Below, piece by piece: positions 1 to 25,560 of a stretch of DNA of 64,000 nt (positions within the stretch are counted from its first letter, which is position 1; each line of letters starts with the position of its first letter). The notes under the pieces are model-generated. The model was given only the letters and a program-made list of their open reading frames with translations. It was not told where the DNA came from and did not search any database. The position numbers were made by a program, and so were the translations under genes. This DNA is from Phalacrocorax aristotelis (taxonomy: Eukaryota > Chordata > Aves > Suliformes > Phalacrocoracidae): NCBI RefSeq assembly GCF_949628215.1, contig NC_134280.1, forward strand, positions 54,276,621 through 54,340,620. The letters are read 5' to 3'.

Positions 1-644
1 ACAGTAGAATCTAAGATTCCTATGTCGGGCTTTCTGCTCTGAAACAATCTGCTGTGGCCATTTTTTTCCTCAGCCTTTAAGATGACGTTAACAAAATACT
101 GCAGGAGATGTCAGCTCTCCCACCTATTGCACTTCTGACAGAACAGGCAATATGTCCCTCTGGTTTGTGGTAACTAAATAAACCTTCACTGATCTGAACG
201 ACTGCATATGGCATGGTATTTCACCTGTAACAGACAAATCTGTCCTTGATTGTTATCATCACATAATTTCTTAGTGGCTGAAGACTGTTAAGTAGTCAGT
301 CTAAATGCTGAGGTTGGCCAGGCTCTCTTGAGCAGCTAAGACTCTATCTCAAGCTTGTTATCAGTTTATGAACCCATGTTACACCAAGGGGAAGGGACAG
401 AATGCACACATCAAACTTGATCACCAGTTAACTGGCTCTGGTAACATGCACAATGGATTTAAGATTGTTGGAGTGGAAACAAACAGGTGCTAATTTAACA
501 GCTACCTATTCAAATTAAAGAAAATACTTTATCAAGAAGATTGAAATGTGAGGTTTTCAAAAGCTATTAAGGAGCTACACTGTATTCTGGGTATTGAGGC
601 ATGGTATGTACACTTTTAGAACAGAAAACAGTTTGTTCACTTAC
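1..644. other. CARS1 intron (cut by window edge)
   Basis: Follows the last visible CARS1 exon. No sequence resembling the next CysRS exon, no RNA gene and no repeat family was recognised. Confidence 0.7.
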
Positions 645-785
645 ATTGAGTGCTTCCATATCTTTATGAAATTCCCCTTCCCAGAATTTGGGGAGCTTTG
701 AGAATATGGAATTGTCAGTCACCTGACTGCCAAATTTTGCGTCCAACCAGTCAGAAAGCAAATCTTTGGCTTCTTCCAACAGTAT
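645..785 (-). CDS. CARS1: CARS1 coding exon (last one in the window)
   Basis: 141 nt, phase 0 at both ends, encoding 47 residues including [14 protein letters not shown] and [12 protein letters not shown]. Borders TTTATAG and GTAAGT. The next exon expected in the family does not occur at 1-644, so the gene runs off the left edge. Confidence 0.95.
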
Positions 786-3700: not shown

Positions 3701-6700
3701 TTTAAAAAGACCTTACCTTATCATCAATATCTGTAATATTCATACAATAAAAAATGTCATATTTAAAATAATCCCTCAAGATTCTTCTCAGGATATCAAA
3801 TGAGATATATGACCTAAAAACATAAAAGATATAAGGGTAAGGGTGTTTTTAGTGAACACCTCAAGTCTATTTCTACTGTATGCACAAACTACTTTAATCT
3901 CAGAGTCAATTTTACAGCAGTTTTAATTTTCCCTCATCTACTAGTAAGTTTCTAATCATACAATGACATAATATTATAACAGGCTTTTAATTTTAAATGT
4001 CAAGCATTGAGTCTAACAAGACTGTGTTCTAGTAATACACTCACCTAAACAAAGTACCTTTTCTATTAATATTAATTTAATATTAATTAATATTCATATT
4101 CATATTCATATTTTGCTTATAATAGGCACTGTTATTACCTATATCGAAATAAGGAACTGCAGTACCTGGCATGTCCCATGTGAGAAGCATCATAAACTGT
4201 TGGACCACAGCAATACCACAAGACCTTTTTTCCATTCTGAGGCTGAAATATTTCCTTAATTGAAAGGGAAAGTACAGTGATCAGAAGAAATTGAAGACAT
4301 GATCTCAGCACAGTAGCAACATATTTGGAGATTAGAACATGAAAATGTGGATTATAATTAGGAAAAAGAACAGTTATTCCACTCCCAGTTTTACCATAGG
4401 AAAAGATCACCACTAGCTTTATTATGTAAGACAGATAACAGGATGTGGATACTTATATCATCTGTACTCTTGTCAATCAAGATATCAGATTACAAAGATT
4501 TGGACTAGGCAGGGCATTATTCAAGCTGTGTTTCTAAAAAGGAAGATGAGGCTTTCTTTTGCATTGAAAAATGTTAGAGTATAATCATTTCACACATACT
4601 TGGATACTACATCCCATATAAATACATTAGTATTCTTAATATTTCCTCTCTTTCCCGAAGGACCTTCAAATACAACCACGAGAAGTTTTACCAGTCTATA
4701 TTACAATAATATAATTGGTGAGACTTTTTTTTTTTTTACACAGATAACATCTAAAGAAACAAACAGTTTAACGTTTCACATTTCATTCTGTTCACATTGT
4801 GCATACTTACGTGTATTACAGATGAACCCCTGGATATTCTTCATGATGATAACTTGCAACTGGGAACTATATATTATGCAATATGCACATACATACACAC
4901 AATTGTAGTATATGTATATTTATTGTCTATATTATAACACTTGCCAGCAAACACACTTGACTTACACAGCATCTCTGGCACATGCTTGTTAACATTCCAC
5001 AAAATACAACCCAGAAACCTGACTACTGATAGGGTAAGCACTTAAGAAACAAACATTTGATGACTTCTCTATTTGTGTTCCTATGGAAACCTCCACTTTT
5101 CTTCCCTTTAGTCACCTTATTGCGAGTCAGGCTGTTGTAGAGACAGAGCCTAGAATGTTTTGTCCCTTCAGGGGGAGACCAGGGGGGCTGCACACGCTTG
5201 CCTTTACCTAGGGGAAAAAATAGTAAAGAGAACTGAAAAGACACCTTCCACAAACAGATTTGCAGTATAACATTTTCTCCTTACCATATCATTATTTCAA
5301 AAGAAAAAAAAACATATATAATTAGACAAAGCAGCTCCAATCCTAGTAATCCAACTACTTCTGTTAGAGCTTCCTACAAATCCACTAAAACCAAAGTAAA
5401 TTATTTCAGTCTAGTTTATTTTCTACTCTCTGACTTGCCATTCCCACTAACTTTTGATCCAAGTAACAGGAAGGAAGAGGGTATAAAAGTAAGAGCATGC
5501 AATTCAGCTAAGGCATTAACAAGAACTTTGAAATTTAATGAATTATTAATAAAGTGTTATATGGCTGTCCTGGGCTTTCTGCAATGCCACTGATTTTACT
5601 GTGACGGCATATCACAGATCTCATACAGAATTTGCAAAAAAAATCTCCAGAGACCAGGGTTAGTCTCTAGAGCCAATATTGACAGAGTATGTGTACTCAG
5701 GGTGAAAGGGAGGGGAGACCGAAAGGTTTAGAAAGAACCTCAGCTTTCTATCATACATTGTTGCTATGTACACACAGCATTTTTGAACACGCTCATTTAC
5801 CACAAATATGCTCCAATTCAGCAAAAGGCTAAATTTTGCCTTTAAAGAGAATAGGTAAAATCCAGGGTAATATTAGTGATGATATTCTTGCATTTGTTTT
5901 CTTTTAAGTTTTTAAGAAGCAACACAGTTTTTAAACTCGTGGTTTTTTCAAGCAAAAGTATGAGTATGTCATCAGTTGAAGAGTTGCAGTTGGCCATGCA
6001 CAGGGCTGCTTACAGCTGTAATGATGTTAAACTAATTATCGCATTAACTAGGAATGAAAGCAAACCAGGAAATTCAAAAATACAGTAAGATTGCCAGCTT
6101 AATACACACAGCCCTGTCTTTAGGAATTCTCATGGTATGCATTTTAACTGCAATTAAAATATTATATGAATAATTTGTTTTGACAACAAAATTGACTTTC
6201 TGATCCTGTGTATCAGGGTGCTCTTCATTAACTCTGTCTCCCTGATATCTTTGTATGAATATTTTGGCTGAAAACCTTCAAGTAATGTAAACACTCATGA
6301 TATAAAAATTTAATCTCTTCCTCATCCTCCTTTTTTGAATAACTGCCTAAAGAAGAAAAAAAGATACTAATTGTAGTACCCTGTCTCACAAATGGACTCC
6401 ATTTAAACTCCATGTTATAGATACACGAAAATATGTGTTTATTCTAAACATTTAATTGTATGAGGTACCCCTGAACAGAATACCTCAAGTTTAAGAGCAG
6501 TCTATCCATAACACAGACCATATACCAAGGCATGAAGTGGTTTAGTCTTTGATTTACAAAGATTACACTGGCATGCTTAATTGTGGCTAACGTTTCCCTC
6601 AGGGAAGGAAGCCTATGTGGGTTAGTCTAATAAAAGATAAATCTGTAAAGCTTTCTTTACTTACAACCACACTAAACATAAGAAAAAACCCAGATACTGC

Positions 6701-9700
6701 ACCCTAAAGTTCTCAGCTTATGACTTAGGTGTCATGTATATCCGCTACATGGACACCAAGGGCAAAGTAAAAGCTATACTGTTTAGTCTGTTCGAATATG
6801 TCTCTGCCAGCTACAGTCTTCTCCCTGGTTGAACTGACGTTCATTTGCTCTAATCCAGCCCTGCAGCACTCAGACACAGATAAAAAACCACCGATAAAAT
6901 ATCCATGGTCTAAGAAGTGTGTGAGATTCACATGTCATTTTCATAGTGAACACTGCAGAACACCATTTCAGGACTTCTGATACATACATCCAGATCATGA
7001 AGATAACAAGCCATAACCCTTCAGAAAGACAGACTGAACATTATAGATTTAATGGACAGGAAACTGGAAACCTTTTCTGCTATTGCTCCACTCTGATCCA
7101 TGAAAGTCTGCAGACTAGTTGTAGTTAGTGGCATTAAATCTGCTATCAGAGCCAGCCGTAGGGCTGAGATCCCTTCACTGCTGAGAAGAAATCAATAACT
7201 AGCACAAATGCATGCAGGCACACAAACATATACAGAATCTACTCGCAGCAGTCTGATTTTAACTGCTGGTCTGCTAGGAATTGAGAACACATATGATGAG
7301 AGGTTGTGAGAAGATGGCATTGGAGTAATATTAGTCAACAATCATCAGCAAAAATGACAGACATTTTGCATTCATTTGTAGGTATTGCAAGCACTGTACA
7401 ACAGCTCTGTGTTGTTATTAATTATTTCATGACTCCCTGAGCAAGGAACTCACTATAAAGCAATTAAATTAGACTAGCTCATTGGAAAACAACTCAGGAA
7501 GGTGATGCAGCTCCCAAAAATGCCAGCACCCATGCTTACATAATGACCTAGATTAACCAGTTAGTATTTCCTCAAATCATCAGCAATACCTCAATTACCA
7601 GGGTTAAAAAAGAATCCCAAACATTATTTTTGAAATTCTGTGTTAATAACAATCATAAGAGGGGGTATTCAGTTTACTTTATTATGAATTTGTACATTAC
7701 ACAGCAGGTATTTAGTTACTCTTGCAGGGAAAAAAAAGTGGACTGAGCAAATCCTGATATTTTAGAGAACAAGCCAAAACCCACATATTATTTTACAATC
7801 CAGTGGTTAGCTTTTTCAAGAAAATACACATAATAAAATTCTGTACACTGAGGAATTTTAAAATTAAAAAAATGTGGAAACAGAGCTTTAATATTTAAAT
7901 AGGTCAGGATCTATCAATTATGCAGTATGCAAGAAGAATTTCATGACCTTGCATACAAGTTGATACGGTAAATTTTAAAGTTTGCAAGAGAGTATGAAAG
8001 GGAACTTCTAGGAATTCTCAGCTATAAAAACCAATACAATGTCAGCTAGTCTACAACCTGCCCACCAGTTTTGAATTACTCACTTGTTTGAAGTTTACAA
8101 GGCTCATTTTTTTCACTGCTGCCATCATAGATTGCTTCTATGTGTCTGTACCACCGGACAACATGGATATACTGGTCCACAGGTGGCCCCGAAAACTTTC
8201 TGAATACCTCCACATCTGCATGTGAAAATGTGAACCCCTGGATATAACTACGAGTGCTCAGGTACTCGTTCAAAGCCTTCACCCTGGCTTCCTCTTCACT
8301 AATGCTCAGAATAAAACTGTAGCTGGAAGCTGTAAAGAGAGGCACAGGACATTTGGTCAGCATTAAAAGAAGGAGAGCCCATGACCAGAATATAACCTTA
8401 TACTATACACCTCCCACTCTAAATTAGCTCTGGCAACTGACAAGAAATCTGAGAAAAATATAATTAATACAAGCTACTGAATAACTACATATTTCCTATT
8501 AATAGGATTATGTTTATACTGTGACAAGTTTTTTGAGACATCTTTACAAAGAGCAATAAGGACAAAAGCACAGGTCCTTTTCATGAAGAAATACTATCCA
8601 CTTAAAATTGGAGAAAATTCTTCACACACAGTAAACCTAATCTGTCATTCTTTTCCACGCTGCTAAAACACTCATACTGCAAATATTTAACATGATTAAT
8701 TTTATACACTGTGGATCGGCTGTGAATATGTCTCCTGAAGTTCAGCATATCCTTAAATCTTTGCACTGGTGCTCACATCCAAGCTCTCATGCAAGCTCCC
8801 AGCACAGTGCGCAGTTACTCCTACTTCCTCTGAGAACTCAAAACTTAAGCTGTTGCTGTATATTTCCATGCTTCTCCTATACCACCTTCTCTCCTCAGAC
8901 ATACGAATAATTTAAAATTAGTAAGATCTACACAAATGAACAGAAAGGATATTAGGTCATGCTCCTCCCTCACAATTTTTTAATTCCATAATTTACTTGG
9001 CATACAGGCAAAGCAGGTTCAATTATGTTTTATCTTTACAAACGTACAGACAGAGAGGAAGCAGTGGAAGGGTTCTGTGACTTGGTGGGATGCTCACGGT
9101 AACAGCAAGCCCTGTGCAAGTCAGTGGGTACGAAGCACTGTAGAGGTTACGGTATCTGGGCTAGCACTAACATGAGATAAGCCTAGCATTCATATTTTCC
9201 TGCAACAATTCAACATTTGTAACTCCGTTCATGTTCAAAGTACTGTATAATCATTAAGCCGATATCCCGCTTAGGTAGTCAGCCAAAAAAGTAATATAAG
9301 ATGTAGCCAAGGCCATTGTGCAATAAAGTGAGAGAGGCAGTATAAGAACAGCTGTCCCCGCTCCCAAACCCCGACAGAGACCACTACCACAAGAGTCACT
9401 GCTTACACTAGCATGAACATCTTCTGCAAAAGTAGTTACCAAAGCATTGGAGGTGCTCATAGACCAACACTCTTGGAAAGGGAAGGATGAAAGGACATGC
9501 GAAAGCCATGGCTAGGAGAGGATGTGAGGAACTGCAGAACTGAAAAGTTTTTCCAAATACCATCAATATTTCCTATATGGAAATCAACTATTAAAATATT
9601 CTACAGGAAATCAGGATGACAAGGAAAGGGCAGCTAGATACCAAGTATGTTTGTGTTGGACTCTTTTGAGTATAAGTAAGATATAGTGGCACACCAGAAC

Positions 9701-12700
9701 TAATAAAAAAGATCAGTGATTAAAAAAATAATAATAAAAAAATCAAAGGTCACAAAAGATTTTTAAAATTCACACACAAAAGCAAACTCAGATTCATGTA
9801 AAGTCTCAATCCTTCTCAAGGGCTATCCATTAAATTGTTCGGTATAAATAAGGAATAACAAGTAAATAATGGTTCATAACTAGACCTTATGGGCTTGCCT
9901 TACCCAGCTGAATGGGATTCAGCTTTGGCTCACATAGTTAATTTTAGTATAAACTTTTCAGGCTCCTAAATATTTACTTATTTTTATCATCATAGAACTT
10001 CACATGTTTATACACACCAAACAGTTTGAAATAGTTATGTTTATTAACTATGGAAACCTAAGACATGTCTTCCCTGAATGTGAACTTTGTATTCATGAAT
10101 CATATGAGGGAGAAGGCCAAAAAAAAAAAGTATTACAGGAATGATCTGTGTAGAAGTGAAACTATATCTCAAAGAAAAGATCTTTAAAGATCTATTGCAA
10201 GGAAAGCAACATTCAATTTGCTAAGTATTATTAGGGTTATTATGACCATTATTCACATACCAGGCTGCTAATGGGAAGCAAGTCAGTGTATCTGAAACAA
10301 TGTAAGTGCTTTCCAACCACATCTGTAAACCAATCTAAAAGGAAAATTGCACGAACTTACACACAAATACGACAAAGATGCCAGAACTCACACAAGCTAA
10401 TTTTGGTAAGGAGAGATGGCAAATACTGCCTGTGAATGCCAGTACCAGCTCAGCCCTGATAAGCTGAGCAGCCAAAACTACCTTGAACAATCTCGGCACA
10501 CACATTAATACTTGAAATTATAAAGTTTGACATCATGTCTAGTTGCAAGAGCACCAGCAGACCTGAAAGTGTAATACATCAAAGAAACCAGTTAGCCCAG
10601 GGAACCTAACAGGAGGATGTGTTTATGCTGAAACTGAGCACTGACTCAAATTCAGCCCAAACTCACATCCATGACAGCACACCACAGCCAGTGCAGTACA
10701 GCATGAACACACCTGAGCAGCTGTTGAACACAGCAGCGGCTGAGCCACAGCAGTTTTGAGCTCCCAGAAGGTTCATTTCACAAATATGAGCTTCCCACCT
10801 TAGTTTCACGGGCTGTACTGAGCTCCAAACTTCCTTTTCTAGACTGACGGCTACTTTTCAAGCCATGAGAGCTAGCTTAAAGCTAGCACAGGTGTGTTCT
10901 ACTCTCTGCTGCAGTCAGATGCAGAGATAGAAGCAGATTTGCTGTGTTTGAGAGAGGGCTGAGGGCTGAGTGCTATCGCGAAACATCTCTGAGCATCCTA
11001 TTTCAGTACATACAGGACAAAATCATTCTCACTTCCGGCTCCAAACTGGACTGAACTAACGAAACAAAAGCTCTTCTCCTGAAGCATAGGGTGCTCTCCT
11101 GGGAGGCAAAAAGGAACTTGGTAACACTGTCTTTTTGAAGGCAGTATACCAGAGGACCATTTCTTTTAAAGCAAAATAAATAAGTCAAAACAATCTTTAC
11201 ATAAGTCTGTTCTTATTTCATTTATATTACTACTAAAAACAAGAGTAGCAAATCTACAGAATGTTGGTTTTCTGTGATTTATCCTGCACCCCCAGTCCCA
11301 CCCCCTTCCCCCCAGTGCCCCAGTGTCTTGCAATGCTTTTAATTCATCACACACTCCCACTGAAATACTTCCTGGTACCTCCCAAGTGCTTCATCCCCTC
11401 TCCCCATACACTTCAGTATCCCCACTCTCTTGTACAGCTCCAACCCATCTTTGCTCAGTCTGCCAACTGTGTGCAAGAGGCAGCCTACTGTGAAATGTAA
11501 TTAATATCAATGGATTCAAAAAATCTTGAGGGAGAAGGGCCAATGGACACACATAGGTCAGAGCTGCTTTATCCCTGTTGCTTTAGAAAACCAGGCTAAG
11601 AAACAGCCCTTCCCTCTGACCACAATTTTTTCCCGTCCCAAAACAAGAATTTCAGTTGCTACTATTCAGTTGCTTTACAAAGTGTCTTTTGACAACAGAA
11701 ATGTAGGAGTATTACCGAGCTGTTGCACAACATTGAACATTAACTCATGCGAATGGAATCATCCGTACACATCAACTCATACCCCGAGAGCAACTCTGTT
11801 CAGAAAATAAGCACTGAGCACAAGTATGGGAGAGGTAGCAAAATAACCTTGAAAAATCATATGAATTAACATTAATAAAATAACACTCCCCCCACATTAA
11901 GAAGTTATTTCAAAAAAATTTCACTGTAGACATTAATACGGTTCTCATACAATAATTGCCAGTGTACGATCTCTTTGGGCAATCTAATTGTCATACATGC
12001 TTCTTTCCATGCATGGAGCGCTTTGGAGACTACTAAAGGACACTGGGAATTTGCCTGCAAGACCGCAACAACACACAGACTCAAAGGCATAAGATTGCTT
12101 CTCCCTTTTATTTGCACATAAAATACCTTTTGAATCACAGAATCACAGGTTGGAAGGGACCTCAGGGATCATCTAGTCCAAGATGTGTAACCCACACAAT
12201 ATCAAATCTGATGGAAATTTTTCACTTTTATGAAGTTGAAAATTAAAACCTCCATTCCTCGAAGGTGTTGACAGCAAAGTAAATACAGAAAAGCCATAAA
12301 GTAGGCAGTAAGCTAGCTGACACAAAACCAGGGAGTTACTTTGCTTCAGGGAAAAATTAGGTTTCTTGGGCTTCCCTGAACCTGCTAACCTTGTCAGTCA
12401 TAATTAGATGACAACTGAAATGTTCAGGGATTTCTGCAGAGGCATCCTCTGAGAAGAAATCTTAGACATTTCTGAATATTTTAAAATGTCATTTATCTTC
12501 CAGCTTCGCTTTCACAGATTTAAAACAACTCATAAAAGGTAAGGGTAACATGCCTCATTATTAATATGGCTCCAAACTGGCCATTTATCGTTCCGGCTGG
12601 CTACTCTGGTAGCTGTGGAAAGAAGTCGAACTATCTGCTCAGCCAAGACAAATTATCCTTTTACATAAAAATTTCAGAAGAACTGAACCAATGCAACTAT

Positions 12701-14260
12701 CTCATCTATGCAAGACACAGCATACAGACAGAGAGCCAGAGAGACAAAGGACTTTTCAAGGCTCACACACAAGGATCGAGAGGCTTTTAGCAGAGCAGGG
12801 ATTTTTAACACAGGAGTATCCCATCAAGGAAGAGCTTGTCAGTCCTGTTCACTTTAGCCCTGTGAGTTCCACTTTCATTTTTCCTGAACTGAAACTAAAC
12901 TTAACAATCACAATTTACGTAAAAAGCAAAGACTATTTGCCCATTAATAAACTTAACTAAAAATTTCTTAAAGTGGTCATGAACTGAGCCTTTGGTGGGT
13001 TTCCCCAGCCTACCTTAACTAAGATACAGAAAACACATCTGAAAAAGCCTGTCCTTTGACAAGAATAAATGTTTCTGGACTCTCTTATGTAGGAATGTTA
13101 CTGGTGATAAACAGAGAGGAAAGTAACTTTCAGTAACAAAGAAAAGGGGTAAATATTTGAATCTATGGATCCTTAACTGGAATGACAGAAATTTCCAACC
13201 CCTTACATACCATAATGGTATTTCATACTTGTGAGACTGGTATTCCAAGTTTCCATTTGCTACAGTAGTGCCAAAAATTATAGGACTACCCTGGCCCTCC
13301 TTCCATATGGAGGAGTGTAGTATAACCCATCATTAAAACACAACCACCAAAAAATGTCCGGAAAAGTAAAAAAGTTCAGACATGAGTTCAAGGGAGAACA
13401 TAGATGTCTAGAGAAGACAGTAAGAGAGACAGAGGCAGGTGAGAGAGAGCAGACAATGCAGTGATAAGCACAACTGACTGAGTGGTCTGGCAGACACCAA
13501 GCATCTCTTTGAACCCATCAGGCTGGAGAACAGCTGTTTCCAAACTTCAGTACTGAGAAGCTCCAAGTTTTTTTGACAAATGAACATGTGTCATCATTAA
13601 CCTTTACGTTAGAGGCGAGGTATGGCGTGGGATTGCCTCCCATGGTCTTGGAAGGCACTGGAGGTCCTCTGATCCATAGGCGCCAGCATGAGAGGTGCAA
13701 CTGGAACCTATAGATCTCCATGTTTCCCACTATCCATACACGTACAGACCCGGTCACATGTCAAACTCCTCGCTCCTGACACCCTGAAGCGGCATCAGGA
13801 GCTGCTTACGTGTCACCCACCGATGAGGGAGACAGGTGACCTCCACAGGGGCACCCACACAACAAGGGGCACGGCGGGGCGATTTCACACATTGACCTTT
13901 GACCCAAGCGTGTCATCACGGCTGATGGCCTCGCACCTCGGGGGTCTGCAGTGGTGGGGTCCCCCCCAGCGCACGCTGCCACAGACCTCGAGGAACGCGT
14001 TAAGGAGACCCCCCAGGACGACGCCCCAACGCCCCCAGCCGCCATCTCCCTCCCCGACGCCTCAGACCACCGTGACAGGGCGGTGGGTCGGCGGTTCCCC
14101 CCCCCCCCGCGCCTGACGTCACGGCGCCCACCTGACACCGTGACAGCGGCGGAGGCGTGACGCCAAACCATGACAACCCCAGAGGACACCTCGTCTCGCC
14201 TCAGCAGGTCTCCCCGGCGCCGGTCACCGACTTACCCTGCTCGGCGGCGGCCGCTGCCAT
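645..14260 (-). CDS. CARS1: Cysteinyl-tRNA synthetase, cytosolic (5' part of the gene)
   Basis: The enzyme charges tRNA-Cys with cysteine in the cytosol. Eight coding exons in transcription order: 14236-14260, 8084-8329 (optional), 5116-5207, 4166-4254, 3717-3813, 3167-3265, 2017-2166 and 645-785. All have AG/GT borders and compatible phases, giving 313 codons with the optional exon and 231 without. Recognisable parts are the class I synthetase segment [14 protein letters not shown], which carries the HIGH-type signature (HMGH), and the NITDIDDK segment that follows it in CysRS. The start was chosen because it is the only ATG in the GC-rich first exon, lies in strong context (A at -3, G at +4), and its phase-1 donor fits both downstream choices. 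The rest of the catalytic domain, including the KMSKS loop, and the C-terminus lie beyond position 1. The upstream neighbour is the death receptor, on the same strand. Identity is near certain from resemblance to human CARS1. Confidence 0.96.
2017..2166 (-). CDS. CARS1: CARS1 coding exon
   Basis: 150 nt, phase 0 at both ends, encoding 50 residues beginning [20 protein letters not shown]. Borders TTGTAG and GTCAGT. Matches the human segment that includes [15 protein letters not shown]. Confidence 0.94.
3167..3265 (-). CDS. CARS1: CARS1 coding exon
   Basis: 99 nt, phase 0 at both ends, encoding [18 protein letters not shown] and then [15 protein letters not shown]. Borders TTTGTAG and GTGGGC. 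Matches the eukaryote-specific insertion after the NITDIDDK segment. Confidence 0.94.
3717..3813 (-). CDS. CARS1: CARS1 catalytic exon
   Basis: 97 nt encoding [19 protein letters not shown] and then [13 protein letters not shown], a Rossmann-fold segment strongly conserved among CysRS enzymes. Donor GTAAGG, phase 0. Confidence 0.95.
4064..4113. repeat. AT-rich simple repeat
   Basis: Repeated TTAATATTAAT units run into three to four CATATT-type hexamers. It is a low-complexity tract in a CARS1 intron, about 50 bases from the splice donor of the HIGH-motif exon. Confidence 0.7.
4166..4254 (-). CDS. CARS1: CARS1 catalytic exon with HIGH-type motif
   Basis: 89 nt encoding [20 protein letters not shown] and then [14 protein letters not shown] is the ATP-binding HIGH-type signature of class I synthetases, and the Cys pair before GPTVYD is the expected place of the first zinc ligand in CysRS. 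Ends AG before GTACTG; the Arg codon is split. Confidence 0.96.
4255..8083. other. CARS1 introns on both sides of the linker exon
   Basis: Contains the introns at 4255-5115 and 5208-8083. Short open frames here lack family resemblance and splice support. No repeat family was recognised. Confidence 0.6.
5116..5207 (-). CDS. CARS1: CARS1 coding exon (N-terminal linker)
   Basis: 92 nt encoding [15 protein letters not shown] through LYNSLTRNK. It begins with two bases that complete a Gly codon (exon 1 joined directly) or a Ser codon (optional exon included), and ends before GTGACT. It leads into the catalytic core. Confidence 0.94.
8084..8329 (-). CDS. CARS1: CARS1 optional exon, GST-C-like appended domain
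   Basis: 246 nt (82 codons) between TTTACAG and GTGAGT, entered and left in the same phase, so inclusion or skipping both keep the frame. The product contains [20 protein letters not shown] and [11 protein letters not shown], matching the GST C-terminal-like segment found only in the longer human CARS1 isoform. In other synthetases such domains serve contacts in multi-protein complexes; that role here is inference. Confidence 0.93.
12132..12182 (-). mobile_element. CR1 LINE, short 3' end fragment
   Basis: Reading the minus strand, TTGGACTAGATGATCCCTGAG leads into a GGTCCCTTCCAACC-type end and finishes in TGTGATTC. This is the typical extreme 3' end of a CR1 element. Only about 50 bp remain, consistent with the strong 5' truncation usual for CR1. 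Confidence 0.8.
14114..14121. promoter_or_regulatory. Consensus cAMP response element (CREB/ATF site)
   Basis: Perfect palindrome TGACGTCA, about 115 bp downstream of the CARS1 exon 1 donor and inside the CpG island. Further TGACG half-sites lie nearby (for example near 14153-14158). Binding is inferred from the motif alone. Confidence 0.6.
14236..14260 (-). CDS. CARS1: CARS1 coding exon 1 (start codon)
   Basis: Encodes MAAAAAEQ plus the first base of the next codon, then a consensus GTAAGT donor. The alanine-rich start differs from the human N-terminus, but length and phase agree. The 5' UTR lies at higher coordinates; its exact start is not visible. Confidence 0.92.
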
Positions 14261-14381: not shown

Positions 14382-14429
14382 GGGGGAGCACCGCCCCCCC
14401 CTTCCCGCCAAACCGCGGCCGTCACGCAG

Positions 14430-14434: not shown

Positions 14435-14544
14435 CTCTCCTCAGGGGCGGCCGTTGCGTCGCAGGGGGTTACCTCAGCCGGGCGGCCGCAGAAGCGACCT
14501 CGCAACACCTCCCACCCTCAGACCACAACGTCAGCGAGTCAACT

Positions 14545-14995
14545 CCAGCTTTTAGCTCAACCGTCTTTTATTACTGTGCATCAAACATAAGTTATGAGCA
14601 AAAAGATACAAAACAAAATGCAGTCGTTTCAGAAACCGAAGCATTGCAATCCTCTCAAAAACAGCAGCAGCCTCTTCATTCCCACTGCCTGGGGCTCAAA
14701 CAGCACGGTCCTGCCTCACGCGAAGGGAAGCGGGAGCTGGAGCACCTTGCTCTGAAGCTGGCATCCGGCGCCTGAGTTTAATATCATACAACTCAAAAGA
14801 CCTTAGTGAACATTGCAACCGGAGTCCATGTTAACGCCGACAGCATTAAATCACTTCCAGCTCCCCGTGTGAAGGTGAGCAGGATATCAAGTCCGTGCCA
14901 TCACTTTTACTAGCAGTTTGTCAACATCCTCATTTACAGGAAGTTTGTAGACATATATATGTACACAGAAACATTTTTTAAATTCATTGTAAACA
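14545..14995 (-). other. Predicted 3' UTR of the death receptor
   Basis: Runs from the receptor stop codon to the inferred cleavage site, about 450 bases. The last part overlaps the edge of the CARS1 CpG island. Confidence 0.55.
14567..14572 (-). terminator. Poly(A) signal of the death receptor gene
   Basis: AATAAA on the minus strand, 424 bases after the receptor stop codon. A GT-rich stretch follows 20-45 bases downstream (about 14521-14545), as expected for a cleavage site near 14540-14555. An ATTAAA variant at 14776-14781 is a possible earlier site. Confidence 0.65.
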
Positions 14996-15291
14996 TTAAT
15001 CTGTACCTTCTAATTTACTTATAATGTTATTACTTTTTAAAGTGTTCAATACATTATCATAAGCCTTGATATCTAGATGCCTTAACTCATCCAGTAACTT
15101 AATAATAGATTGTTTCTCTCCCAGTGTGTTTTTCCAGGTGAGAAGCATCTGATAAGACTGCTCTTCTGTATCATTAGGGAAGTCATAAATAATTTTTAAA
15201 ATATCATTTTCATTAAGATGAGTTCTCATAAACCTCTTCCATTTTTTTGGTGGTACTTCATTTATGAATGCCCAAAAGCTATCTCTCAGTT
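14996..15291 (-). CDS. TNFRSF23: Death receptor exon 10 (death domain and stop)
   Basis: Encodes ELRDSFWAFINEVPPKKWKR, then a helix-rich segment with SYQMLLTWKNTLGEKQ and LLDELRHLDIKAYDNVLNTL, ending SKLEGTD and a stop. Spacing and the central Trp fit a Fas/TRAIL-receptor-type death domain. Acceptor CTTTCAG after a pyrimidine tract. Confidence 0.92.
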
Positions 15292-18200
15292 CTGAAAGAG
15301 AAAACACACATCAGCTTAGGTTTTTGCAATACAGGGTTTTTTTCATAGCTAACATACATCCTTTCCCATTAGATTTCAGCCAATACACACACAGACTAAA
15401 CAGCAGCAGCAAGGCCAGGTTTGGCACCTAAAAAGCAGCAGGACGAATAGGTTTCCTACTGAGTGATCTTGAAAGAAGCTAAACGTATTAGTCTACATAT
15501 CTCAAAAGTAGTCTCTTAAGATGAGATGCCATTCAATAAAGGTGGTTTTGAGGAAGGTGTCATTGGCCTGCACATCTTCACTTAAGCTTAATAGGGCTAC
15601 TCAACAGTGGGCTTTAACCACTTCACTATGCTACTGGTATAGTGGGGTTTGCCATGCCAAGATCAGCATAAGCAAAACCCATCACTTGGACATCCAGCGC
15701 ATCAACTTGCTGGGCACAGGCAGATGTATGGGGATTTGATGCAGTCTTCCACGTGAGTGGACATCTGACAGAAAGATTTCCTGCTCTGACCTACACCTCA
15801 CTAGTTAATGCAGAGTACACTGCCGCAATGCAGACTTGCTTAAAACATAGAAAAAAATTTTGCACCATCGTTATACTTAAAAGCACTATTACACTGTGGG
15901 TTTAGAGGAGAAATGGAGTGAGGAGCGGCTAAAGTCACTTAGTTTGTTCAGCCTAGAGAAGAGGAGACTGAGGGCAGACCTCATCGTGGTCTGCAGCTTC
16001 CTCACAAGGGGAGGAGGAGGGGCAGGCACTGATCTCTCCTCTCTGGTCACCAACAATAGGACCCAAAGGAATGGCAGAAGATGTGGCAGGGGAGGTTTAG
16101 GTTGGATATTGGGAAAACGTTCTTCCCCCAGAGGGTGGTGGAGCACTGGAACAGGCTCCCCAGGGAGGCATCACGGCACCGAGCCTGACGATATTCAAGG
16201 AACACTTGGACGATGCCCTCAGACACTGGGAGTGAATTTTGGGTTTGCCCTGTGCAGGGACAGGAGTTGGACTTGATGATCCTTGTGGGTCCCTTCCAAC
16301 TCAGGACATTCTATGATTCACTGTACCCCGTGCCAAAAAGCCGTGCTTTAAAGTAGAACAATTCGCCACAGGGATTACAACTTCTCTCAAACGTAATAAT
16401 AATCCTGTTTCAGCACATTTTTACAAAAAACTGAACGCCTTGTAGCACTGAGCAATATTCTTTAGCCTCCCTACACTATTCCTTAAGTAGACGAAAGTCA
16501 ACAGGGGGAAAAAAACCAACAACAAATTCCAAGTGCTGCCAATTTATGGAATACTTACCTTTCTGAGAGAGATCTTTAACAATTATTCGATACTTTGCTT
16601 CTCGTACCTGTAATACAAAGTTGGACTGTTACTCCAACATATCGGACCACTTCACTCACGATTATTCCTCAGCTACTTGATAGCTTGCTTCAACAGCACA
16701 CATGCCAGTAAGGGGGAAGGGGGCAGATTTCACAGCACAGCTGAAAGTATTTGAGTAAAGAAAATTGCATACTGAAACAGCCACACTACTAGCTCCAAAG
16801 CAAAACAACAAGGTAACACATTTGCTGCTATTGCAAAATAACAGCTTCTGTGTAAACATTGAACGGGGGCAGAACAGTTAAATGAGGGACTAGTTTGCTT
16901 TCTCAAGATATCACTTCCCATACTTTCTATTACATCTTTAAAGCAAAACCTCCTCTTCCCTATCATTCTGCCTGAAAACAGCATCTATCACTCAAGGAAT
17001 AGCTAAGAACTCTACTGAAATTACACGTGTATGAGAGAAAATACAATAATTTCACACACACACTTACCATACAATTTTCTGGTATCCTACCACTTGCTGC
17101 ATTCTGATGAAAAGCAGGATTCTGCCCAGTTTTTGCTGGTAGTGAAGACTCAGCAATCCTCCTCCAGCACCTTTTCATGTGTTGCCTCCAGCCCCCGGAC
17201 AGGATAGTGCCCCGCTCAGAAAGTGCAACACTGTTTTCCTCTGGCGACCTGGTTTTTACTTCCAGTTTAACATTGGTTTCCTCTTGCCCCTCCAGGCTCT
17301 CACCAGAGTTCTCACCCTCTGGGCTGGTTGTGTTATTTGCATGTGCCTCCACTTCTGGTAAAATCAGGCTTTCAGTACTGCCCTCAGACTCCTGTAAAGA
17401 ATAAGAACATATCTTAAGAGATGTTTCACAGGTAGGCCTTCAAGGACAATCTGGAGGAAGAAAACAGGATACTTAAAAGTTACCAGAAGCCAGAGAAATA
17501 TTAGGAGAGCTGCTTTTCTGGCAGAGTTACAAACACACAAAAGTTACAGCCTTTACAGACTTGAATTTCAAATGGTTTCAGAGCTTAAACTCCCCACTTC
17601 GCTGGCATTCTGCTCCCACTGGACTGTGGGGTAAGGCTCACAGGCTACCTCCATGACAAATGCAGGGAACTTTTCCTGATGTTTTTACTGGAGCATATTG
17701 CTACTTGCTCCTCTCTAGGTATGGAAGGTATGCACCTGTCCTGAGGCAGGAGGAAATTAAATTGCCTTGCTGCACCTGAGCTGACTAACAGCAACAGGGT
17801 CCTGAAACCTATAATTCTATCAAGGCTGATGTTCTCAGAGCTTTTGCCAAGCTGATAATAGTCTATAAGCTCAATGTAAGTGCCCTAGCTTGGATTTCTT
17901 TTGGCATGATAAGTTTTTCTGGGAGGCTTACAAACTAGAATCAGTTGAAAGAAGCCAGGGAGTACCAGTGTGCATTGCATAGTTTTGTGAGAGGACAAAG
18001 AGGGAAGGAAGCAAGGAGGGCTGTATCAATTTTAGCATTGTGAATACATTAAACAAGCACGTGCCAGGGACTATAGCTCCAACTTATCAAGAACAGTATA
18101 ATTACTAAGGAGACCAGCATCCATCTGGCATATAAGCTAGTGCTAAAACTAGAAAGGTTTAGGATTTTTTTTTTTTTAAGGTAGAAAATGAGGGCGAGGA

Positions 18201-21200
18201 GTGACTTTTTCCCAACTTGTGTTTGTTAAGGAACAGTTTTCCCATGAGCATAAGCCAGTGTGATTTCTGTTTCCACAGTCAGCAACCCACGTGTGACACC
18301 ACCATGTGACCAACACACATAAGCAGGGGTGTGAGGAAAACCACCCCCCGCATCACACATGTAGTAGTACATCATCCTCAATGAATCGACTTTGTTTAAG
18401 GGTACAGACAGGTTAAACAAGTTGATCCTATTTATACAGAGTAGTTCTTAAATAGGTAACCAAGTGACCAAAGGTACACAGCACGGCTAACTAATAGCTG
18501 CTGCTCTATTTTGGAATGAAATAAAGTATCAGCAGTATTTTTTCTTGCAGCAGTATAAATTCACTGGTACTTTGGAAAGGACAGCATGTTGGTCCCAAAA
18601 CACCTGGTTGCAGGACTGGATCAGCATAGCTCTTCTTAGCAAATAAGCCTTTTGTTACAGTAGCATGAACACTCCAAGTGTGCAGATGTTGCAACTCAAG
18701 TCTGTGACAACTCATGTCAGAGCTAAGCATCACCATACACCAATTTGTGATTGCATTATTCTACCTCCATTTTATTCAAAATTAAGAGATGTTATATTTG
18801 CCTATTCCTATGCTACAGCACTTTGACCAGGTTTTTTGTTAGGTTTCTTCATCAGCTTCTACGAATACACAAAGCGCTGCAAGTCTGGCCACGGCGTGGG
18901 GGGAGACACAACCCAACAAAAAGCCATGGCTGATTCATATATTTGAGCCACTTATGGACCTTAAAAGAGAGAAGAGTTTAAGGTGATGTTTTTAACAGAT
19001 CTTTCAATCCTGTTTCTTCAGTCTTCAAATATTTGTGACATAATTAACATGAATTTAATTACCTGTAATGTTCAACTAGTAAGATTAGACAAGAGCTCAC
19101 ACACTTGGCGAGTAGTGCACGCATTGGGTGGGGGATAAGGCAGGCAGCAGGGAGAAGGTGCTGTACACATGCTACGAGATGAATTTGGATGCTTCTCTTA
19201 GATCCTCATCAAGACAAATATTTGTTTTACAGCTTGGTGTTACACATCATTAACTACACTAGTGAAGACTGAGCTCATTTTTGTCTCACCATGCTGTTAG
19301 GAGTACACCTTCTAAAGAGAGAAGCTAAAGCTAGACTAGCTAAATACAAGCTAGTCTCTTACCTTGCAAAATGCTAGGCTAGCAATAATTGTTTTAGACT
19401 GAAACAGTATGGTTCTGAAATAGTGTTTGACTACAGGATGCCAGGGTAAGCCTAGCTTTAAAGTGGAACATATGCCAGCGGCCAGTCTCCACTTTGTAAA
19501 CCCTTTTCAGGGGGGTACTTCCGAACTGGTACACTCCAAGCCCTGAACACCTCGTCTTATGGGGCTGTCTAAGACCAAAACGTTGAACTGCCGTGTTCTG
19601 GTCTGTAGCTTGTGACATGAGCCCAAAGATAGGAAGACTCAGTCACTTTGCTGGATCATGAGAAGTAAGCCTTATGAACAAAAAATGTTGTCGTCAAAAA
19701 CCAAGGCAAGCTAGAACACCACCACACAGGGAAGTGATAGCTGACTCTGCCCAGGGAATACACACATGAAGCAGCAAAGAACCAATTGGATCAAGGCATA
19801 ACTTGGAGAGAGTTTGAAGTGAAAGCTTGCACTTTAGGCAAATTTTTTTCCACTTTCAAAACATCCTGGCCACAGGCTCTGGAATGTTTCCAAGGGAAGT
19901 ACTGGAAAGGCCAACTGCAGTGGACACATGCAGCTAACGAATGCATCAGGCCCTTGCTAACATCTGGCCCTGTATGAATCATAACTTGTTGCATCACAGG
20001 AACACATCCTACCAGAGGTCTACAGTGAGGCAAAAGTTGAGAGCTGTGTATCAGCTACAATTAAGCTGCACAAAACTGAGATGAAGCACTTGATCCATCA
20101 AATACTTACCAGACCTTTCTCCATATCTTTATCAGTTGAAGCAGCTGGAAAACAAGATAAATGTCTAAGAAACTTAGGAATTGCAGCAACTTAAACATAG
20201 CTGAATTCATACACAATTTATATGCAGTAGACACATTGATAACAAGCCAAAGCTCTAAGACAAGCTATTTAATTTCCTTGACCTGTCATACATTTAATGA
20301 GAGCACTACCCTCAGCTTCCAAAAATGGCACAAACACTGTGCCTTCATACAGGGGATGAAGCATCCCTTTTGGTGAAATACAGACCACAAGATGCAGTTT
20401 GGCTTTTGAGCCACTCTTTCAACCTCCCCCCTTCCAGCTTATGCTTCTTGGTATTTTTGTGGGCTATTGCAACACAGGAGAGAAGGCAGAAATTTTCTTT
20501 ACTGCAATACAATCAGTAAGACACTATTTGAACAAAAGTTAACATGTAAAATTCAGAATAATTTTCAACACTATTCTAACTAAACTAGTTTCAAGAACTT
20601 CAATATACAGTAGTAGAAAGAAAAGTTTCTCAGGAAAATATTTCTATTTCCACTATAAAAAAAAAAAAAAAAAAGGAATTCACACAGAATTTATCAACCT
20701 AACATTCCTGTTAAGGGACTCAAATGATGAAGGGGAAACAATTTGTAGAAAAAGCCTCCACAGCCAAACACAGTGAATGAAAGTAGTTAACGATATAATT
20801 AGTTGCTACTTCTTGCTTCATACATCTGAGCTCACACACAGATTTCTCTTTGCCAATAGCAGAAGTCCTTTTAAGGACCTTACACTAATCTTGCTTTGAA
20901 GCAAAGGCATCTGCCGGCAAAGAAAGAAAGCTCATAGCTAAGTTTATGCATTTTATTTACTGAACAAAACTAGATTCCATTATATGGGAGTTGCTTAATT
21001 GAATCGCATACTAAACGAGCTAGAGCTTTTGTGTTACCCTATAAGGTAACACCAAGGCCAGGGATAGCCTTAGCACATGCTTTGCCTAGTTCTGGGAAGT
21101 TATGGACAGTAATCAAGCAGTTACCTTTATCCCTCTTCAGCTTTCTAATTCCTAAGAACATCAACAAAACAGCAACCACTACCACCACAATCACAATAAT

Positions 21201-24200
21201 CCAAACAAAGGCTGTACTTCCTACAAAAAAAAAAAAAGGAATAAAATTAGTACCACAGCAGTCGCCAAACAAGATATTTTGAAGTGCAAGTCTTCCCCGC
21301 TCACCTCAAGAGCAGCCAAAGCTCAGCACTAGTACAGTGACCCAGCTAGCTTGTCCTGGCAAAGGCACTGGGACTATCAGCTGACCTGAACATGCAAGTA
21401 CTTGTTTGCACTGCACATCACTATCCCAAAGGCAGCGGGGGATTCTGTATAGAGCTGCAAAACAACTTCTACAAGGTTTTCTGAAGAGGTATTTAAGAAA
21501 AGGGGGAAAACAAATACGCAAAAGACAACAGCAGGCTTCAGCTGCTGTAGTGTTGGCAGCATCAGTTCCTTTCTCTAGTGTAGCAGAAGCTGTCTACCAG
21601 CACAAGAGAAAGCCACTCCATACACATCTTCTCAGACACAGAAGACATGGAAGAACTCTTTGCACTATCCATAACTTTCAACAGTGTCACTGTTGCAGCT
21701 CTGAAAACCCTGGCAATAAACGCAGCTTTTTACTGAGTGAAATTTAAGATAGTTTGTCACTCCAACACCTTTGGGAACTTGTCCCTAGCAAGTAACTTCC
21801 AGACCAAAATATAGAGGCTCTTAAACTTGTTACAGTAGTTCAAACCACCATTTTGCAGACTTCTCTGGTGTTATTAGCCTGAAGCCACACACCCAATAGA
21901 GCAAGCTGAGAGGTATTTGTGTACCAGACCTTGATCAGGTAAGCCACATCCTAGGTCCATAGTAGCATTGCAATTCCGCACAATTTCTTTCCCTTCCGGA
22001 CACCTGAAGTGGATGGCAACACAGGGTTGTATCAACATTTCCAGAGCAATATGCAGCTCCACCCAGGCCTATTGGTTTGGGGTTTTTTTTTTTTCAGGCA
22101 CAACTTAGAGACATGAACAGAACATGCATAAACAGATAGCTTTGTTGGAAGTGCACCTTTAAACAACCCAAGATAACACTACAGTATTAAAGAGAAGCAA
22201 AGCAGATAGAGGCTAACATTTATGAGCCTTAAGTGGCAGGGTAAAACCCCCCACAGAGCAGATGCATTGTTCATGCACACTTAGTTTCCTTCAACAGCTG
22301 GTTCTACCTCTCAAAATTTTGGACTGGCTTCTACAAAGCTCATTCAAGTGTGTACGTGAGGAAGTACTACTGTGAAGGCAAGAAAAGTGTAAGCTTATAG
22401 TCATAAGCAATAAGCACAATACCAAAATACATATCTTTCTAGGCCTCAACATCATGTATTTTGATGCCTGAAATTTAAATGCATGAACAACACATTTGGC
22501 TTCAGGGTAGTTATTTACAGCTTAATAATGCATTAGGTATTGGCACAGATTGGGCCACAGCTCCAACGTTCCCTAAAAGGAAAACAGTCACTTACATTCA
22601 TTATCAAACTTACATTTTACTGCATCTCTGACATATTTCACAGCCCTCAGCGGGGCAGAAATACCCTTGTTTGCATTGGCATTCAGTATCGTGCGTCAGA
22701 GTACAGGGTCTCAAAGTTATCTGATCTAAAAATAAAATATAAGTTACAAAGTAAATATAAGAGTTGCAACTCTACAATGATGCAAAAATTACTCAGGCCA
22801 TAAAGGCAATTTATTTATAAGTTCAATATCCTCAATGACTGGAAGTGCAAAAAACCCAGAGGACCAGGCTTTCTGCATTAAAAAAAGGGGAAAAGGATTA
22901 AGGTTGCATCAAAATTGTGCTTGGTACCCTCTTTGCACTGTCTGCACAACAGGCATTCTTCCAAGCCGTTCTCATGGGCAGTATAACCCTCTCCTTCCGT
23001 GCAAGGGACACATCTTCCTCTCAAATGTGAGGCACTGCAGTGCTGAGCAACATAAGTACCTGTGGAAGGTGAGAACGAGCAGCGGCAGCAGTCTCAAGGG
23101 ATCATTTAACAGGCAGAGGACTATAACAGGACATTACAACACAAACCCATTTTTGGTGAAAGCTCAACTCCTCCTCGCACGCGAACAGTGCGCCACGCAA
23201 ACCAAGGAGGGTCAGGAGGCATATTCGCAGCTCGCTGCTCCAACAGGGAGTGGTGGCAAGCAAGGCATCCAGCCAGGCCTCTGCCGGGATGCACCAGCAA
23301 TGAGGGTGACTCACTGCAGCAGCTCACAGTCACCCACATGGCCAGCACCATCTTCTCTGAAGGGAGATGGCAGGCACAAGGAGAATTGCTCATGACAACC
23401 TCTTTTCCTTCGTTTGAATTATCTTTAAATACATCCAAGAGCCCTCCAATGCTACCTAAGGGCAGGGTGCTTCTGAGCACAAGGCTTGTAAATTGTGCAC
23501 CCAGCGAGCGAGGAGGGGAGAGCAAAGGCAAACCAAAGTTTTACCTGCAGACACAGAAATATCAGAATTCCCCTAGGCATGTTCTTTGTGCTAAGTGAAG
23601 GATTTAAAAAAAAAAAAAAACAACACACACAAAAAAACCCACACCGCCACCCGACTTTGAACCTCAACAGTGGGCAGAGGTTTCCTGGCTTGCCGCCAAG
23701 GCGCCTCTCCCAGTCGTCATCTATTGCGTAAGGGGCTCTCAATTCAAAATGGAGCCCCAAGAAGCCACCACAGCTCCAACCAAGCTAACACTTTCAATGG
23801 AGGAAATGTAAAACACAATACAGTGACACAGTCATTGCCACAGGGGAAAAAAGCCACAGCCATTAGCAGCTACAAGTGCCTAAAGCCTTACCTGCTGGAC
23901 AAGCTACACAGCAGCGACCTTCATGTAAGTATTCTCCCACTCCACAGTCCTCTGCTCCAGTTCCAGGCATCATCAGCAGTATAACCTACAGCAGAAACAA
24001 AAAGGCATCTGAGTGACTCATCCTCCCAGGACACGATAACCATCTCAGGGAGATGTTCCTGTAAGGACTTGAAAACACCTTCAGAAGTTTATGGGAAGCC
24101 ACAAAGGAAACCCAAACTAATTTCTGCTAAGTGTGCTGCTCATGGAGGTAATTACAATCAAAGCCGTGGGATTAGAGCAGCACCATGCAGCGGCTGTTGA

Positions 24201-25343
24201 GCTTTAGGCAGCTGTTCACCCAGCTCCCACCCCCATTTTAAACATCTATTTCTTTTTACTAATTCACCACAACTGAACTTCAGAGGCCGAGGTTTCTGCC
24301 TCGTCTAAGGGGTTCGTTTCTCCCTCAGCTTTTTTAGTTCAGGAGGGCCAGCGTTAGCCTCCTTCCTGCACAAGGGAGGAAACGCCCCAGAGATCCCATC
24401 CAATATTTCTCTGCAATCTTTGTCAGAAGGCAAGTAGTTCTGACTCATTAACCAAATAACTTACTGCAGCCACGGGAGCATTAGGAACACCGGGTGTTTT
24501 AAGACCCCGTGAGCCGCAGAGCCCTCGGCAAGCCGGAGCGGAGCAGAGCGGGGCGGCGGGGACCACTACGGCGGTGCGAGGCCTCCAGATGCCTCCCAAG
24601 GAGGCCAGCGGGGAGCCCAGAGGCCGCGGGTTTCAAGCCACCGAGGTACCTGCCTCGCTTCCAGCATGGAGGCGAGAGAGAGCGGTGAAACAGAAGCAGG
24701 GGACGGGGCGACCCGGCGCTGATAACCGCCTGCGGCCAGTTTCTAGGCTGAAACCGAGAGTCCCCGCTCCCCGGCTCCCGCGGCGCCACTCTTTGGACCA
24801 CCTCCCCGGGGGACCGTAAGTCTCCCTCATAATTGTATAGTTTCGAAACCCACCATCTTCAGAATTAGAGGAGGAGAGGGCCTTTGAAGAGCTCGCTCCC
24901 GCCCTGCAGGGCCCCCGCGGGGAGGCGGCACGGGCTGCGCCACCTGCCTCCCCCAGCGCGGAGCCGAGCTCAGGGGCCGGCTTACCACCACGGCAGCTGC
25001 ACTTCACATGCTTTTCAGGCTTATAAGAGCTGCGCTAACGCCGGACACCCGAAACTTCAGGCAACACGCAATAAAAGTTACGGGAAGTTACTAAAGTCTC
25101 CTGAAGAAGAGGAGGGTAAAAAACCCCGCAAGGCTCCTCCACGCTGGGCTTGGAGGAAGGTGTGGGTTTTTTTCTCCCCCTCTCAAAAGTAAGGATTTGG
25201 GGCTGGCTGCGGCCAGGCGCCAGCCTCGACTCGCGGGGAGCAGGTGGAGGACGAGCCCCTGCCCGCACACACCGGCCCGGGCCCGAGACGCCCCTCGCCC
25301 CGTCACTCACCACCAGCACCCCCGCCAGCGGTCCGGCTCCCAT
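14996..25343 (-). CDS. TNFRSF23: TNF-receptor-superfamily death receptor at the Tnfrsf22/23/26 locus
   Basis: A single-pass receptor of 414 residues on ten exons with matching phases: 25311-25343, 23892-23985, 22928-23059, 22614-22725, 21930-22003, 21125-21220, 20110-20144, 17068-17391, 16559-16607 and 14996-15291. Residues 1-22 form a signal peptide. Residues 24 to about 143 hold three TNFR cysteine-rich repeats, including a Fas/TRAIL-receptor-like PCTLTHDTECQC. Residues 153-173 are a membrane span followed by RKLKRDK. An acidic linker follows to about 315, and a death domain occupies about 317-405, with the conserved Trp in LLTWKN. It should bind a TNF-family ligand and recruit death-domain adaptors. 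It lies between CARS1 and OSBPL5, as mouse Tnfrsf26/22/23 do, but those mouse receptors lack a death domain. The ATG is in strong context (GCCGCCATGG). The symbol rests on synteny and memory of avian naming; a TNFRSF26- or TNFRSF10-like name is possible. Confidence 0.88.
15901..16319 (+). mobile_element. CR1 LINE, 3' fragment
   Basis: About 420 bp of the end of CR1 ORF2 and the CR1 3' UTR, ending GGACATTCTATGATTC. It is nearly the same as the 3' end of the larger element at 55907-57238, so both belong to one subfamily. It lies antisense in the last intron of the death receptor. Confidence 0.92.
16559..16607 (-). CDS. TNFRSF23: Death receptor exon 9
   Basis: 49 nt encoding VREAKYRIIVKDLSQK, which leads into the death domain. 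Borders ATTACAG and GTAAGT. The junction phase to the last exon fits. Confidence 0.85.
17068..17391 (-). CDS. TNFRSF23: Death receptor exon 8 (acidic cytoplasmic linker)
   Basis: 324 nt, 108 codons, phase 0 at both ends, from ESEGSTESLILPEVEAHANN to GRIPENCM. It is rich in Glu, Ser and Asn in the first half and contains a basic GWRQHMKRCWRRIAESS segment. No known domain was recognised. Borders TTTACAG and GTAAGT. Confidence 0.85.
17392..20109. other. Death receptor intron 7
   Basis: A 2.7 kb intron. Short open frames show no resemblance to known proteins, and no repeat family was recognised. Confidence 0.6.
20110..20144 (-). CDS. TNFRSF23: Death receptor exon 7 (small cytoplasmic exon)
   Basis: Only 35 nt, encoding AASTDKDMEKGL. 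Borders TTTCCAG and GTAAGT. It is accepted because it restores the phase between the membrane exon and the linker exon. Confidence 0.78.
21125..21220 (-). CDS. TNFRSF23: Death receptor exon 6 (transmembrane)
   Basis: 96 nt encoding the membrane span, FVWIIVIVVVVVAVLLMFLG, and the basic stop-transfer segment IRKLKRDK. The acceptor TTGTAG follows a run of 13 T bases. Donor GTAACT. Confidence 0.9.
21930..22003 (-). CDS. TNFRSF23: Death receptor exon 5 (cysteine-rich repeat 3, stalk)
   Basis: 74 nt encoding CPEGKEIVRNCNATMDLGCG and then LPDQ. NAT is a possible N-glycosylation site. Borders ACTTCAG and GTCTGG. Confidence 0.87.
22614..22725 (-). CDS. TNFRSF23: Death receptor exon 4 (cysteine-rich repeats 2-3)
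   Basis: 112 nt encoding DQITLRPCTLTHDTECQC and then KQGYFCPAEGCEICQRCSK. The pattern resembles Fas and TRAIL receptors. Borders TTTTTAG and GTAAGT. Confidence 0.9.
22928..23059 (-). CDS. TNFRSF23: Death receptor exon 3 (cysteine-rich repeats 1-2)
   Basis: 132 nt encoding GTYVAQHCSASHLRGRCVPC and then a segment ending NGLEECLLCRQCKE. The Cys spacing is that of TNFR repeats. Borders TTCCACAG and GTACCA, phase 1 at both ends. The plus-strand open frame over this exon is a shadow. Confidence 0.88.
23892..23985 (-). CDS. TNFRSF23: Death receptor exon 2
   Basis: Encodes VILLMMPGTGA, the end of the signal peptide, and then EDCGVGEYLHEGRCCVACPA, the start of the first cysteine-rich repeat. Cleavage is likely after the Ala of PGTGA. 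Borders GCTGTAG and GTAAGG. Confidence 0.88.
23986..25310. other. Death receptor intron 1
   Basis: The part nearest exon 1 (about 24480-25310) is GC- and CpG-rich and belongs to the promoter island. GC-rich open frames on both strands lack any known domain. Confidence 0.6.
25311..25343 (-). CDS. TNFRSF23: Death receptor exon 1 (start, signal peptide)
   Basis: Encodes MGAGPLAGVLV, the first half of the signal peptide. Donor GTGAGTG, phase 0. The exon lies in a CpG island with an optimal Kozak context. Confidence 0.88.
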
Positions 25344-25560
25344 GGCGGCCCCACGCTCGGCTCGGCTCAGCTGGGCTCGGCTCAGCACAGCCTGAGCTGT
25401 GCCACCGCCCCTTTATCCGCCCCCGGGGCGGGTCGCGCCCGCCCCCGCGGGGCTTCGGAGCCCTCGCGGGGGAGAGCAGCGGAAGAAGCGGGGTGCGTGT
25501 ACCCCCAGAACGAGCTGCCCGCTGCCGGGGTCAGCGAACACCCCGTCGTGTGTTAAGATA
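25344..25560 (-). promoter_or_regulatory. TNFRSF23: Promoter and 5' UTR of the death receptor (CpG island)
   Basis: GC-rich, with GC boxes around 25418-25447. A GATAAAG segment (minus strand, 25411-25417) stands about 70 bases above the ATG and could act as a weak TATA-like element. The transcription start is not directly visible. Confidence 0.6.
25359..25386. repeat. Short tandem repeat in the death receptor 5' UTR
   Basis: Two identical 13-base copies, GGCTCGGCTCAGC, with a 15-base period, just upstream of the start codon. Confidence 0.75.

Follow-up and report, generated by a model that had tools for sequence, protein, structure and literature searches.

Within the window, which is the whole 64-kb stretch of DNA analysed here (C5:54276621-54340620 of the source genome), the gene model places a receptor gene of ten exons on the minus strand, running from 25343 to 14996. 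Its reading frame begins with the ATG at 25343 and continues without interruption to the TAA that ends at 14996, giving a coding sequence of 1245 nt including the stop codon and a protein of 414 residues, and all nine introns are of the GT-AG type. The original prediction, made from the letters of the DNA, had set a receptor with a signal peptide, three cysteine-rich repeats, a membrane span and a death domain at 14996..25343, between CARS1 and OSBPL5. These limits prove to be the exact start and stop codons of the rebuilt coding sequence, and the predicted count of ten exons agrees with the gene model. The architecture is recovered by Pfam searches and hydropathy, and the location is supported by matches to PF01406 and PF01237 on the two flanks. 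Since the model contains neither a stop nor a frameshift, and its splice dinucleotides are intact, a pseudogene reading is disfavoured. The positions of the features are collected in Table 1.

Table 1. Features of the receptor gene and its neighbours, in window coordinates.
Feature	Position	Strand	Description
Exon 1	25311..25343	-	Start codon in GCCGCCATGG context; N-terminal part of the signal peptide; residues 1-19 hydrophobic
Exon 2	23892..23985	-	Remaining signal peptide and start of cysteine-rich repeat 1
Exon 3	22928..23059	-	End of repeat 1, most of repeat 2
Exon 4	22614..22725	-	End of repeat 2, start of repeat 3
Exon 5	21930..22003	-	End of repeat 3, N-glycosylation sequon (residue 136), short stalk
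Exon 6	21125..21220	-	Membrane span (peak residues 153-171), then a basic stretch
Exon 7	20110..20144	-	35 nt; cytoplasmic linker
Exon 8	17068..17391	-	324 nt, phase 0-0; cytoplasmic linker; in-frame skip possible (computed)
Exon 9	16559..16607	-	49 nt; linker
Exon 10	14996..15291	-	Death domain and stop codon
ATTAAA (candidate)	14777-14782	-	213 nt 3' of the receptor stop; precedes the AATAAA
AATAAA polyadenylation signal (candidate)	14567..14572	-	423 nt 3' of the receptor stop codon
G+C- and CpG-rich stretch	24500..25500		Covers exon 1; G+C 0.66-0.68, CpG observed/expected 0.77-0.81
CARS1 part	570..14260	-	Catalytic-domain pieces from 570 to ~4450; candidate start codon at 14260; partial trace
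OSBPL5 part	35116..42698	-	Four exon pieces, oxysterol-binding domain; partial trace

The CpG-rich stretch over exon 1 is presumably the promoter of the receptor gene. At the other end, the receptor and CARS1 are arranged head to tail, with the end of the receptor lying beside the CARS1 promoter island: the candidate AATAAA is about 300 nt from the candidate CARS1 start codon (window 14260-14572). A repeat search of 14500-25400 returned no repeats of 40 bases or more. In intron 9, the stretch at 15900-16330 resembles the 3' end of a CR1 retroposon of birds.

In the spliced receptor protein, three stretches match TNFR_c6 (E 2.8e-18) and one matches Death (PF00531, E 9.5e-9), both above the Pfam cut-off. 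Searched separately, the parts give E 8.7e-22 for the ectodomain alone in the Pfam search and E 5.3e-10 for the death-domain exon alone against PF00531. Residues 1-148 hold 20 cysteines, and the sequon listed in Table 1 is the only one for N-glycosylation in the ectodomain. The strongest hydrophobic 19-mer of the protein covers residues 153-171 (mean 3.52) and the second strongest residues 1-19 (mean 1.94), so that by hydropathy only, a type I membrane topology is predicted, with a signal peptide and a single span. The putative protein thereby combines the tandem repeats, type I topology and cytoplasmic death domain of a death receptor of the TNF-receptor superfamily. For the death-domain exon, structure prediction from the single sequence gives a helical but poor model (mean pLDDT 50.3).

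The exon pieces to the left of the receptor share its strand, and their match is to PF01406, the class I (C) tRNA-synthetase domain (E 1.2e-29). To the right lie four further exon pieces of that strand, which jointly match PF01237, the oxysterol-binding domain (E 9.1e-18). The flanking matches were obtained with three proteins assembled from exon pieces picked by eye and with one single open frame, all of these being partial proteins rather than full gene models. We take the left neighbour to be CARS1 and the right one to be OSBPL5 specifically, by recognition of their sequences. On the CARS1 side, an open reading frame at 8079-8402, again on the minus strand, matches Arc1p_N_like (PF21972, E 7.4e-7) and is perhaps the GST-like N-terminal exon of CARS1. 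When the receptor was searched against the whole window by tblastn (E up to 10), no second copy of it was found: the search gave its own exons and one chance match (E 1.3), which speaks against a tandem array of receptors at this locus.

The source genome encodes several relatives of this receptor. A scan of its 1.28 Gb with the Death profile gives at least 27 matches at E up to 0.001. These include the receptor locus itself (C5:54291691-54291903, which is window 15071-15283; 39.2 bits), a FAS-like gene on C12 that was then read out, a FADD-like death domain on C5 and a RIPK1-like death domain. The corresponding TNFR_c6 scan gives at least 12 matches; the receptor locus is not among the matches listed, probably because its repeats are split over several exons. 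Searching the genome with the receptor yields 16 matches at E up to 1, seven of them its own exons and nine elsewhere. Three of these nine fall in one gene on C24 (C24:3874001-3884000) that has both repeats and a death domain; this TNFRSF10-like gene is the closest relative found in the genome. The FAS-like gene is not listed by this search at E up to 1. All names of paralogues (FAS-like, TNFRSF10-like, FADD-like, RIPK1-like and so on) are assignments by resemblance, and the species of the PDB rows used below are likewise presumed.

The kinship of the receptor was assessed by identity against 11 other rows for the repeats and 12 for the death domain. In the repeats, the highest values are those for the TNFRSF10-like gene (47/109 positions) and DR4 (40/93). 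They are accompanied by bird DR6 (42/114), DR5 (32/87), bird and human FAS (39/117 and 32/91), bird TNFR1 (36/103), bird DcR3 (37/114), bird OPG (32/106), HVEM (36/117) and bird NGFR (23/80). In the death domain, the TNFRSF10-like gene again comes first (28/87), its lead over mouse FAS (18/57 aligned positions) being slight. Then come human TNFR1 (20/71), human FAS (20/74), bird RIPK1 (21/82) and bird FAS (20/88), with six other rows ranging from 12/77 to 19/79. Judged by sequence identity, the nearest relatives of the receptor are thus of the TNFRSF10 type, namely the C24 gene and DR4. Among solved structures, the best matches of the ectodomain are DR4 (9.4e-18) and DR5 (4.3e-16), followed by FAS (3e-12). 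For the death domain, no solved structure is more than weakly similar: TNFR1 comes first (2.8e-5), then FAS (0.0062 and 0.018) and FADD (0.085). The intron phases agree with those of the C24 gene at all five junctions compared (1, 1, 2, 1, and 1 before the death domain) and with those of bird FAS at the four junctions read. Within this comparison, limited to the C24 gene and FAS, shared phases do not single out a sister.

Neither the repeat trees, nor the death-domain tree, nor the joined tree gives the receptor a supported sister. The repeat tree used for topology tests left out NGFR and HVEM as long rows. On it, holding the receptor together with bird FAS is rejected (p-AU 0.03), a modest result as the one rejection among five tests, and a pairing with TNFR1 is borderline (0.056). 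Groupings with bird and human FAS (0.22), with the C24 gene (0.32) or with the C24 gene, DR4 and DR5 (0.29) are not rejected. In the death-domain tree, the receptor pairs with the C24 gene at a weak 67/71, the C12 FAS-like gene forms a clade with FAS of human and mouse at 100/99, and placing the receptor with the FAS clade is not rejected (p-AU 0.36). When repeats and death domain are joined, a grouping with the C24 gene (0.51), with FAS (0.51) or with TNFR1 (0.16) is not rejected.

The gene in the window is almost certainly the one catalogued in chicken as the death-domain TNFRSF23, an identification based on locus, domains and name; for the locus, the position of the chicken gene is presumed. 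The chicken gene appears in a list as death domain-containing TNFRSF member 23 (PMC6854487), under accession NM_204386 (PMC4694067). A bird gene of this kind, death domain included, was thus on record before, and the finding is less novel than the original prediction implies (PMC6854487). In chick interdigits, TNFRSF23 reaches 3.28 +/- 0.88 times its basal level at the peak of regression and shows no marked change with Btg2 (PMC4694067); the interdigit values are repeated in a passage of PMC7644521. An excerpt on virulent Newcastle disease virus places TNFRSF23 among the genes raised by infection (PMC9145607). Another paper cites, by title, a 2004 study of chicken TNFRSF23 splice variants in the ovary (PMC3532176).

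Very probably, then, the window holds the bird orthologue of chicken TNFRSF23, a death receptor of type I topology, located between CARS1 and OSBPL5, that would act by ligand-induced clustering. We infer its ligand, its adaptor, its cell-death output and its sequence orthology with the chicken gene. The three cysteine-rich repeats would be the binding site for a ligand of the TNF family, with TRAIL (TNFSF10) or one of its close relatives as the most likely candidate. TRAIL is the first guess because the repeats are DR4/DR5-like; identity does not single it out, DR5 (32/87 ectodomain positions) being no better than bird DR6 (42/114). Receptor clustering by the ligand would place the death domains side by side. 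The clustered domains might in turn recruit FADD and, through FADD, caspase-8, with TRADD and RIPK1 as the alternative. Given the weak likeness to solved death domains and the poor structure model (mean pLDDT 50.3), either route may apply.

Splicing offers a second possible output. Computed from the gene model, skipping exon 7 gives a form of 182 residues and skipping exon 9 a form of 301 residues, each anchored in the membrane and devoid of the death domain, as is the 208-residue form produced by reading into intron 6. Skipping exon 8 keeps both the frame and the death domain. By leaving out exon 7 or exon 9, the bird gene could therefore make its own membrane decoys.

Could the receptor instead be a translocated or duplicated gene of the FAS lineage, foreign to that of TNFRSF23? 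Its third repeat is FAS-like, the alignment reveals a D-T-x-E-Q stretch common to its death domain and that of FAS, and FAS structures are among the matches of this domain (0.0062, 0.018). The intron phases agree at the four junctions read, and a grouping with FAS is not rejected by the death domain (p-AU 0.36), by the joined data (0.51) or by the repeats when bird and human FAS are taken together (0.22). Against this, the genome has a separate FAS-like gene on C12, whose death domain joins human and mouse FAS at 100/99, so the receptor in the window is not the genome's FAS, and a FAS identity for it is disfavoured. Its repeats are also closer to the TNFRSF10-like gene (47/109) than to bird FAS (39/117), and DR4 and DR5 precede FAS in the PDB ranking of the ectodomain. 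On the point raised by the original prediction, that the extracellular part might fall inside FAS, the outcome is divided: the pair with bird FAS is rejected on the repeats (p-AU 0.03), and a FAS placement is not rejected when human FAS is included, on the death domain or in the joined set. Taken together, we consider a FAS-lineage origin very improbable. A second TNFRSF10-type TRAIL receptor that reached the locus independently, and is not the counterpart of mouse Tnfrsf22/23/26, would account for the fact that the closest paralogue is TNFRSF10-like in both repeats and death domain, the two genes being joined on the latter at a weak 67/71. The comparison with mouse was made with unverified Tnfrsf22/23 ectodomains. 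With these rows, the tree does not join the window receptor and mouse, and joining them is not rejected (p-AU 0.46). Outside the mouse pair itself, the window receptor has the highest raw identity to them (43/118, bird OPG having 35/100), which counts for little, since bird OPG (22/87) equals it (25/100) once shared cysteines are left out. The repeats of the window receptor and of these unverified mouse rows may be called broadly similar, a weak lead. What weighs against an independent arrival is the locus, which is that of the mouse genes; that a gene of the same family should land there by chance is unlikely, and so is this explanation as a whole.

A further possibility accepts the lineage and concerns the product: the bird gene would mainly make decoy forms by splicing, the form with the death domain being minor. 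Each of the three computed events, skipping of exon 7, skipping of exon 9 and read-through into intron 6, leaves a membrane-anchored protein without the death domain, and splice variants of chicken TNFRSF23 in the ovary are on record as a cited title (PMC3532176). Yet exon 10 encodes an intact, recognisable death domain, which one would hardly expect of an exon in rare use, and we regard a predominance of decoys as quite unlikely. The reading that we prefer remains that of a TNFRSF23 death receptor, orthologous to the chicken gene.

At the mouse locus, the gene order is Cars-Tnfrsf26-Tnfrsf22-Tnfrsf23-Osbpl5. An origin of Tnfrsf22/23/26 by loss of the death domain plausibly fits this order. 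Mouse DcR1 is Tnfrsf23 and mouse DcR2 is Tnfrsf22, both being TRAIL decoys (PMC6826877), and Tnfrsf22, Tnfrsf23 and Tnfrsf26 are all described as TRAIL decoys in a text that also reports variants in Tnfrsf22 and Tnfrsf23 lying 37 kb apart on mouse chromosome 7 (PMC4447437). TNFRSF22 at least is presented as a mouse-only, potential TRAIL decoy that lacks the death domain (PMC5650661). Of the original prediction that the three mouse genes lack a death domain and act as decoys or orphans, the accessible literature thus bears out the decoy role for Tnfrsf22/23, with Tnfrsf26 added by PMC4447437, and the missing death domain for TNFRSF22 at least. Evidence against a restriction to mouse comes from a report of TNFRSF26 in a bat (PMC4269970) and from a Tnfrsf23 group described for cow and Xenopus (PMC3532176). 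Two imprinting papers, in the parts available, name Tnfrsf23 and Osbpl5 together, without a gene order. PMC3532176 treats Tnfrsf23 as a decoy in mouse, cow and Xenopus and brings in the chicken gene alongside, a description that may mislead when applied to a bird receptor whose death domain is intact. In the portions of the open-licence literature available, no statement was found that the mouse decoys arose by death-domain loss.

One scenario, which we hold to be possible but somewhat short of probable, is that the CARS1-OSBPL5 locus of the amniote ancestor carried one full death receptor. Birds would have kept it, and the mouse line would have multiplied it and lost the death domain, leading to decoys; the same conversion may still happen in the bird by skipping of exon 7 or exon 9. 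With a death receptor in birds where the mouse has decoys, the change from one type to the other can be addressed directly. The comparison is also a warning that a gene called TNFRSF23 may not do the same thing in birds as in mouse.

Among known systems, the TNFRSF10 receptors (DR4, DR5 and the C24 gene) resemble the window receptor in domain order and give the best matches to its ectodomain, the C24 gene lying at a separate locus. FAS (TNFRSF6) is similar in domain order, in the third repeat and in the death domain. Chicken TNFRSF23, likened here by its description, is, as is the window gene, a bird receptor of the TNFR family that carries a death domain, and it is not known to differ from the window gene. 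Mouse Tnfrsf22/23/26 occupy the same position between Cars and Osbpl5. They are nevertheless described as decoys, TNFRSF22 at least being without a death domain, whereas the window gene has an intact death-domain exon, and there are three receptor genes at the mouse locus versus the one found in the window.
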